Assembly (NCBI GenBank): GCA_024644105.1
Contig: JAHELP010000009.1
Span: 1-33,039 of the forward strand
From: Candidatus Nitrosopumilus sp.
Lineage (GTDB): Archaea; Thermoproteota; Nitrososphaeria; Nitrososphaerales; Nitrosopumilaceae
Direction of reading: 5' to 3'
Length of the DNA stretch: 33,039 nt
Position 1 is the stretch's first letter; each line of letters opens with the position of its first letter. Positions 3,456 to 6,084 of this stretch are shown here, one piece after another. The notes under the pieces were generated by a model that searched no databases, was not told where the DNA came from, and was given only the letters and a program-made list of their open reading frames with translations. A program made the position numbers and the translations under genes.

Positions 3456-4250
3456 CTAATCTCTATCTGGTTTTTGAATTGGCAATCTTTTATGTTCGCT
3501 GTTTATGTGTAATTGTTGGATTTTTTCTATCGTGTCTTTGCTAATTTGGGTATTTTTTTCTGTTTCAAGAATTGATAGTTTTTTATCATATAGACAATAC
3601 AAAATAGAATCTATCTCTTCATATGATAATCCTAACTCTTCTTCAGCCTCATGGTCTTTCCATAGGTGTGGGCTGCTCTTCTTTGCAATGACATTTTCGG
3701 GAACGCCTAGATATTTTGCAATTTCTCTTACTTGTAATTTGTATAGTGAAATAATTGGTGTGATATCTGATGCGCCATCACCAAATTTAGTAAAATATCC
3801 AATTTGGTATTCACTTTTGTCGCTAGAACCTAAAACAAGATAATTTTTTGCATTTGCATAATAGTACAAAATATTTGTTCTTACTCTTGCCCTTAGATTT
3901 CCTTTAGCTTTTTCATTTGGCTCAAGATACATTGAATATTCGTTTATGATTGGCTTGATGTCAATTAGCTTGTATTCAATTCCTGTTAATGAAATCATCT
4001 TCAATGCGTCTTCTGTTTCTGATTTTGGTGTAATTGAGGTATCTGGCATGATTAATGCAAGAGTTTTTTCTTTAAGGTTTCTTTTACAAAGATAGGCTAA
4101 AACTGCTGAATCAATGCCTCCGCTTAGCCCTAAAATGAGTCCTGCCGAATTATTCTTTTCAATTTGCTCTGCTAGAAATCTTTCAATTCTCTCTGTTATG
4201 TTTGAATAATCTTGATTTTTGATTTCATTTATAATATTTTGATTCAACAA
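3456..4250 (-). CDS. nadE: NAD+ synthetase
   Basis: SGGIDSA PP-loop, GSSDKSEYQIGYFTKFGDGASDI, SPHLWKDHEAEEELG. Confidence 0.94.
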   Translation of the reverse strand: MLNQNIINEIKNQDYSNITERIERFLAEQIEKNNSAGLILGLSGGIDSAVLAYLCKRNLKEKTLALIMPDTSITPKSETEDALKMISLTGIEYKLIDIKPIINEYSMYLEPNEKAKGNLRARVRTNILYYYANAKNYLVLGSSDKSEYQIGYFTKFGDGASDITPIISLYKLQVREIAKYLGVPENVIAKKSSPHLWKDHEAEEELGLSYEEIDSILYCLYDKKLSILETEKNTQISKDTIEKIQQLHINSEHKRLPIQKPDRD

Positions 4251-4354
4251 CTAGTTTTCAAATGTGTGAGAATAAAACTTATGCCCAATATTGAATCTAA
4301 ATTAGTTCATTTTGAACACACATTATTCCTTATACTAATTTGGATAAATAAAAT

Positions 4355-4430
4355 CACAGAATAATCTGTGCCCAACATAACCCATACCTAGCCAAGGGAG
4401 GGGAAATTTGTCCCTTCTCTTAGCATTTTT
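4355..4430 (+). ncRNA. Candidate structured small RNA: hairpin 1 (4355-4370), hairpin 2 (4391-4424), U-tract (4426-4430)
   Basis: CACAGA-ATAA-TCTGTG hairpin, then GCCAAGGGAGGGGA-AATTTG-TCCCTTCTCTTAGC (14 positions, 11 Watson-Crick, 2 G.U, 1 mismatch), then ATTTTT. The wobbles are valid pairs only in the + strand RNA. Confidence 0.5.
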
Positions 4431-4842: not shown

Positions 4843-6084
4843 TTGAGTAAAGTAAAGTCCAGTCCAAAATTGATCAAAGAGGGTAAACTATCTTATGAAT
4901 GGGCTAGATCTCATATGCAAATTTTAGATAATACTATTAATCGATATAAAAAATCAAAACCACTAAAAGGAATTACACTTGGATTCTGTCTTCACATTAC
5001 AAAGGAAACATCTGTCTTATTGATGGGCGCTAAAGAATTAGGTGCAACTGTAGCTTGTTGTGGTGGAAATCCTTTGACAACTCAGGATAATATTGCAGCA
5101 TTTTTAGCATCTCAAGGAATTAATGTATACTCTTGGCATGGGCAATCCGTTAAAGATTATGACTGGTGTATTGATCAAGTGCTAAAACACAAACCAACTA
5201 TTTTGACCGATGACGGTGCTGATATGAACATCAAAGCTCATTTTGATAAAAGATTCAAGGATATGAAAATTCTTGGTGCTACAGAAGAAACAACAGCAGG
5301 TGTTACTAGAATCAGAGCTGTGGAAAATCAAGGAAAACTTCGTTATCCGGTAATTCTAGTAAATGAAGCATACACAAAACACATGTTTGATAATCGATAT
5401 GGAACTGGTCAAAGTACCATTGATGGATATCTTCGCGCCATGAACCTTCTCATGGCATCAAAGCGTGTTGTAGTTGTAGGATATGGATGGGTAGGTCGCG
5501 GTGTAGCATCCAGATGTAGTGGAATGGGTTCTAAAGTAATTGTTACTGAAGTTGATCCTGTAAAAGCTCTTGAAGCCCATATGGATGGATTTGAAGTAAT
5601 GCCAATGGCACAAGCTGCCAAGATTGGAGATATGTTCATCACATGTACTGGAATGACAAGTGTAATTCGTAAAGAGCATATTCTAAAAATGAAAGATGGT
5701 GCTATTATGGGTAATGTAGGTCACTTTGATGTTGAAATTGATAGTAAATTCTTGTTAAAATCTTCAAAATCCGTCAAGGAAGTTAGACCAAGTTTAGATG
5801 AATGCATATTGAAAAATGGAAAGAAAGTTTATCTAATTGGACAAGGCCGTCTTGCAAATTTAGTTGCAGCAGAAGGCCATCCTCCAGAAGTCATGGCACA
5901 ATCATTCTCAAACCAAATTCTTTCTGTATTGTATATTCTTAAAAATCACAAAAAGATGGAAAATAAAATCATTAACGTTCCAGAAGAAATTGATCAACAG
6001 ATTGCAGTTGATGCACTAAAGGCAATGGATGTTAAAATTGATAAATGGACTCCTGAACAAGTAAAATATGCAAACAACTGGTAA
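4843..6084 (+). CDS. ahcY: Adenosylhomocysteinase (TTG start)
   Basis: GYGWVGRGVASR NAD-binding motif, TDDGADM, GNVGHFDVEID; ends ...WTPEQVKYANNW. Confidence 0.95.
   Translation: MSKVKSSPKLIKEGKLSYEWARSHMQILDNTINRYKKSKPLKGITLGFCLHITKETSVLLMGAKELGATVACCGGNPLTTQDNIAAFLASQGINVYSWHGQSVKDYDWCIDQVLKHKPTILTDDGADMNIKAHFDKRFKDMKILGATEETTAGVTRIRAVENQGKLRYPVILVNEAYTKHMFDNRYGTGQSTIDGYLRAMNLLMASKRVVVVGYGWVGRGVASRCSGMGSKVIVTEVDPVKALEAHMDGFEVMPMAQAAKIGDMFITCTGMTSVIRKEHILKMKDGAIMGNVGHFDVEIDSKFLLKSSKSVKEVRPSLDECILKNGKKVYLIGQGRLANLVAAEGHPPEVMAQSFSNQILSVLYILKNHKKMENKIINVPEEIDQQIAVDALKAMDVKIDKWTPEQVKYANNW

Follow-up and report, generated by a model that had tools for sequence, protein, structure and literature searches.

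The stretch of DNA analyzed here, referred to as the window, comprises 33,039 nucleotides of a Nitrosopumilus-like archaeon, and the related loci are titled Nitrosopumilus. Between the genes encoding an NAD synthase (nadE, Pfam PF02540) and a Rieske [2Fe-2S] protein (PF00355), both located on the minus strand, a first-pass annotation had proposed two hairpins and a T-run forming a structured small RNA. These were found exactly at the positions and with the sequences claimed. The annotation had overlooked a promoter-like block (4313-4338), an almost invariant linker (4371-4390), and the non-conservation of a 27-codon open reading frame on the plus strand. The locus has the following features.

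4271..4278, minus strand: probable nadE TATA box, GTTTTATT on the minus strand, some 21-28 nt before the nadE start and outside the RNA gene
4313..4338, plus strand: promoter-like block TGAACACACATTATTCCTTATACTAA containing the TATA-like TTATACTAA; marked by column identity, with a putative role
4339..4352, plus strand: variable spacer from the conserved block to the RNA body; column identity about 0.67 in 4343-4352
4353..4430, plus strand: predicted small RNA of about 75 nt; covariance model match 4353-4429, E 3.6e-19, single copy; z = -4.0
4355..4370, plus strand: hairpin 1, CACAGA (4355-4360)-AATA-TCTGTG (4365-4370); pairing in 98% of cells over 25 distinct homologues
4371..4390, plus strand: linker CCCAACATAACCCATACCTA, single-stranded by unpaired probability, column identity 0.97-0.98; candidate interaction site
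4391..4424, plus strand: hairpin 2, terminator-like; 10 of its 14 pairs with compensatory changes, pairing kept in 91.5% of cells
4426..4430, plus strand: short U-run (5 T) after hairpin 2, read from the sequence; terminator-like scan match on the plus strand

The arms of hairpin 2 (4391-4404 and 4411-4424) enclose a loop at 4405-4410 and are paired at 13 of 14 positions, with one C/A mismatch (4393/4422) and two G.U pairs (4397/4418 and 4400/4415). On the minus strand these two pairs turn into A/C mismatches, a point that the first-pass annotation had stated correctly. Hairpins 1 and 2 are separated by the C/A-rich, unpaired linker of about 20 nt, CCCAACAUAACCCAUACCUA, in which two CCCA-type half repeats (CCCA..A motif), CCCAACAUAA and CCCAUACCUA, are 10 nt apart. 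The U-run after hairpin 2 is short and varies among homologues. The predicted RNA gene would point away from nadE and run toward the Rieske gene or, in relatives, toward the gene for a small secreted protein. The next gene on the plus strand is ahcY, starting at 4843, with the antisense Rieske gene intervening and up to 1.2 kb more in relatives. Near nadE itself, GAATAAAA of the TATA region is also kept in genomes lacking the RNA (e.g., L032, L036, and L038).

Distribution and conservation of the element

A covariance model (R1) was built from eight copies and used to search 96 genomes of the genus. The element was found in 25 of these at the same locus, beside nadE and/or the Rieske gene, and a second model (R2), run over 400 genomes of the order, added a degenerate 26th copy in G060. 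Conservation in relatives, a check named beforehand, was thereby borne out. Among the carriers is the named Ca. N. salaria, with its copy at L079. Each carrier has one copy, except G036, which has the locus on two contigs; no paralogous copies were found in the genome from which the window comes. The two G036 loci (L062 and L064, on contigs C26 and C70) are diverged nadE-element-Rieske arrangements within one assembly and probably reflect a strain mixture in the MAG.

No convincing copies were identified with the covariance models in other genera of the order (251 genomes of the family and 400 of the order). Beyond G060, R2 returned only two chance-level matches over the 400 genomes (the chance-level matches in other genera being G268 and G028), and the sole extra match among the 251 family genomes (L065, E 0.008) lay inside an apparent coding gene. 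When 85,462 species genomes were searched with the exact linker pattern, eight SAR116/alphaproteobacterial matches were obtained, and a shorter pattern matched 6 viral contigs. We regard these as coincidences because their flanks carry no trace of the element, and the SAR116 matches share one locus that is probably coding.

In a DNA search covering 61 genus genomes, the spacer was conserved in part of them and absent from the others. Carriers fall on both sides of the genus in a tree of the neighbouring proteins, and parsimony of presence and absence gives 8 changes, a number that cannot itself separate gain from loss. We favour ancestral presence with repeated loss, because the location is fixed and degenerate remnants occur (L026, L031, and L034). 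The RNA element would be dispensable, since about three quarters of the sampled genus genomes, some of them incomplete, had no match and several copies look degenerate. The copies in L059 and L061-L064, with z near zero, may be decaying.

Column identity was computed over 20 intact copies or homologues. It was 0.62-0.83 in the nadE-side spacer (4243-4302), 0.99 in TGAACACACA (4313-4322), and 0.90 in TTATTCCTTA (4323-4332). Between two well conserved blocks it was 0.67 (4343-4352), followed by 0.96-0.98 in hairpin 1 and the linker core (4353-4392), 0.77-0.90 in hairpin 2, and 0.26-0.64 downstream of hairpin 2. This profile reads as the pattern of a putative promoter, a spacer, and a transcript.

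Neither the window nor five homologous loci gave a score above the gathering threshold of any Rfam 15 family, the database to which the first-pass annotation had pointed for an Infernal search, and the element looks undescribed. The best weak match at permissive thresholds, STnc480 (E 1.2, 20 bits versus a cut-off of 72), was dismissed as chance. Both the C box (RUGAUGA) and the D box (CUGA) of a C/D box sRNA are absent from 4353-4430, in keeping with the lack of an Rfam match. An H/ACA guide RNA is likewise not indicated: the hairpins are short and simple, with no internal guide pocket, and the element ends in GCATTTTT, with no ACA box near the 3' end.

Structure, strand, and coding potential

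Folded as plus-strand RNA, the 77-nt element gave -25.4 kcal/mol (z = -4.0 versus dinucleotide shuffles), and its minus strand gave z = -1.6. Among 26 homologues, z fell below -2 in 21 on the plus strand and in one on the minus strand, and the mean energy of hairpin 2 was -15.4 kcal/mol as plus RNA versus -10.6 as minus RNA. The plus strand folded better with a Wilcoxon p of 2e-5, the sequences being related and hence not independent. The 3' arm of hairpin 2, UCCCUUCUC, is nearly fixed, and the opposite purines alternate between A and G. Such swaps opposite a fixed U keep A-U or G-U pairs on the plus strand and leave A/C mismatches on the minus strand, and therefore argue for the plus orientation. 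The orientation claimed in the first-pass annotation is thus supported by the fold comparison and by the A/G variation, as well as by the upstream conserved block.

Both flanking genes lie on the minus strand, and hairpin 1 scores there as a weak terminator-like site, as might be expected if the element terminated, or formed the 3' end of, the mRNA for the Rieske protein (or for the secreted protein), or else belonged to a nadE leader. We consider a minus-strand element very unlikely, however: the homologues fold poorly on that strand, no T-run follows hairpin 2 on it, the probable nadE TATA box sits between the element and nadE, and the element stays conserved where insertions part it from each neighbour.

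Covariation was counted on a model-fitted alignment of 25 distinct homologues. Of the 20 pairs in the structure, 10 had two-sided changes, compared to 2.8 in shuffles and no more than 6 in slid controls. Hairpin 2 covaries, a favourable outcome for the covariation check that had been proposed. An unfitted alignment of 8 sequences, too uniform to show any covariation, had none beyond shuffles. The clearest single compensatory case is L058, with GCAAAAGAGAG/CTCTCTTTTGC in place of the usual hairpin 2 arms. The one-sided changes in hairpin 1 are of the type that keeps pairing on the plus strand (C-G/U-G, G-C/G-U, or A-U/G-U), with three unpaired cells. The mean unpaired probability of the linker (4371-4390) in this genome is 1.00. 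These comparisons indicate a conserved RNA secondary structure in 4353-4430, and support a conserved unit, its plus orientation, and the predicted single-strandedness of the linker.

The upstream block matches the RNA body in its degree of conservation, which would suit a DNA-level element, such as a site for a regulator or chromatin protein, acting without a functional transcript. The pairing of hairpin 2 is nonetheless kept through G.U pairs and compensatory changes, which matter for an RNA but not for DNA palindromes, and the linker is not symmetric; we judge a purely DNA-level role highly improbable.

No reading frame was conserved across the element among the 26 homologues. The first-pass annotation had offered the alternative that the structure terminates a tiny plus-strand mRNA carrying the 27-codon frame. 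This is not supported, as more than half of the 26 homologues have no ATG at the corresponding position, and the frame in the others is anywhere between 4 and 44 codons long. On the minus strand, a 23-codon open frame (MLGTDYSVI...NNVCSK) recurs at about 4310-4381 and in homologues. It was judged to be chance, being interrupted or without a start in the well-preserved L041, L048, L050, L052, and L055, and substitutions in its variable codons freely alter the encoded amino acids. Although the window has both frames open, such variation makes a tiny coding gene on either strand, with or without the element as its terminator, extremely unlikely.

Upstream block and independence from neighbouring genes

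Just upstream of the RNA, and separated from it by a variable gap of about 14 nt, lies the conserved block GAACACACATTATTCC-N-TATACTAA (4314-4338), whose column identity over 20 homologues is 0.90-0.99 at 4313-4332. The block occurs once per genome in 12 genomes. It stays with the RNA where sequence farther upstream is replaced (L044, L052, and L054), and L060 keeps ACACACATTATTCCTTATACT of it. We infer that block 4313-4338 would be the RNA gene's own promoter, its spacing to the RNA appearing to resemble that of a TATA box to a start site; transcription of the gene and its termination would be inferred on the same footing. The TATA-like TTATACTAA precedes hairpin 1 by about 20 nt, slightly less than the usual archaeal TATA-to-start distance of about 26, and therefore the presumed 5' end of the RNA could fall inside hairpin 1. 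An upstream GTTCA-TTTT-GAAC palindrome was considered as an extra hairpin or binding site and rejected, since its left arm is not kept in L055 and L057 and is missing in L044 and L052.

Several genomes have different sequence on one side of the unit formed by block and RNA. In G031 (L044), about 230 bp of inserted sequence, with the direct repeat TGAACACACA on its flanks, lies between nadE and the unit. The ends of this insert are ATTTTATACAAAA and TTTTGTATAATAAA, and it is possibly a small non-autonomous mobile element. The upstream sequence also differs up to the conserved block in L054, L052, and L060. At L060 (G009), a ParB-like gene on the same strand replaces nadE upstream, and the element follows it; the RNA of this locus is diverged, and the assembly has 9% contamination. 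On the other side, the unit and the Rieske gene are separated by one or two genes for predicted secreted proteins in L039, L040, L044, L045, L048, L050, L053-L057, and L063. One such protein, of about 127 aa, is encoded on the minus strand, has a signal-peptide-like N-terminus and the sequence QQPxSKYNYQEIVFLGFVEDYSRG..., and is absent from the window; a second of about 210 aa is sometimes found beside it. The two examples of these proteins tested had no Pfam match.

Block and RNA are intact in most genomes with insertions on either side, and the unit therefore depends on neither neighbour, which speaks against its being a nadE leader, a Rieske terminator, or a riboswitch. A riboswitch or cis leader would further have to belong to the 5' UTR of a same-strand gene, a position that the element does not occupy. 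Taken as a whole, the sequence comparisons make it quite probable that 4353-4430 on the plus strand is a stand-alone, independently transcribed non-coding RNA gene.

Proposed mode of action and significance

Block 4313-4338 as promoter would drive an RNA of about 75 nt, composed of a 5' hairpin, an exposed linker of about 20 nt, and a 3' terminator-like hairpin with its U-run. The hairpins would serve to bound and shield the RNA, which probably acts through the exposed linker. As the working part, the linker would most likely pair in trans with one or more mRNAs, possibly assisted by an RNA-binding protein. If the RNA gene is real, we regard this antisense mode as about equally apt to be right or wrong. 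Complements of the linker were searched for in 8-16 carriers at near-full length with 3 mismatches, as 14-mers with 1 mismatch, and as exact 10- and 11-mers, and no recurrent complementary site of at least 10 nt was found. Off-locus matches were no commoner than reversed-pattern controls and, apart from one mid-gene orthologous pair, were not in orthologous genes.

The same RNA gene might instead carry, in its CCCA..A motif, a protein-binding or sequestering site and not an antisense seed. A nearly fixed, unpaired linker with two CCCA-type half repeats 10 nt apart would agree with such a site, as would the failure of the linker-complement searches to find a conserved complementary target. The genome-wide seed tests covered lengths of 10 nt or more, and we hold a protein site to be possible but rather doubtful.

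Bacterial trans-acting sRNAs have a layout of 5' hairpin, exposed seed, and intrinsic-terminator hairpin. The 4353-4430 RNA follows the same order, with a hairpin first, then a single-stranded candidate seed, and a terminator-like hairpin with its U-run last, but differs in having a putative archaeal promoter, no identified Hfq site, and a U-run that is short and variable. Within the archaea, sRNA154 of Methanosarcina mazei is an intergenic trans-acting sRNA (PMC5867862), and the two RNAs are alike in being intergenic, archaeal, conserved within one genus, and folded into a stable two-stem-loop structure. In contrast, sRNA154 belongs to another organism group and is reported to act via its loops on known nitrogen-metabolism mRNAs (PMC5867862), whereas the conserved exposed part of the present RNA is the linker. 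Haloferax volcanii intergenic sRNAs such as sRNA132 (PMC6560208), compared in general features, are similar as independent archaeal sRNAs with a presumed mRNA target, but their expression and target are known, while the 4353-4430 RNA is a predicted one. A 2018 review of archaeal sRNAs (PMC5867862) does not mention Thaumarchaeota, and our literature search for Nitrosopumilus small RNAs yielded nothing matching this RNA. We file the element as a new family of a known kind, the archaeal intergenic small RNA.

Archaea of the Nitrosopumilus type are among the main nitrifiers of the ocean, and the literature searched gave no description of a regulatory RNA from them. Being a conserved single-copy RNA whose boundaries and orientation are well defined, and having Ca. 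N. salaria as a named carrier, the element is directly testable in existing metatranscriptomes and cultures, and its patchy presence offers natural comparisons of carriers with non-carriers. Tentatively, and with more reserve than for the RNA gene itself, it might represent the first regulatory RNA of marine ammonia-oxidising archaea to have comparative support, one that would be ancient in the genus, would control an mRNA or protein of nitrogen or energy metabolism through a nearly fixed 20-nt linker, and would have been lost repeatedly in particular lineages.
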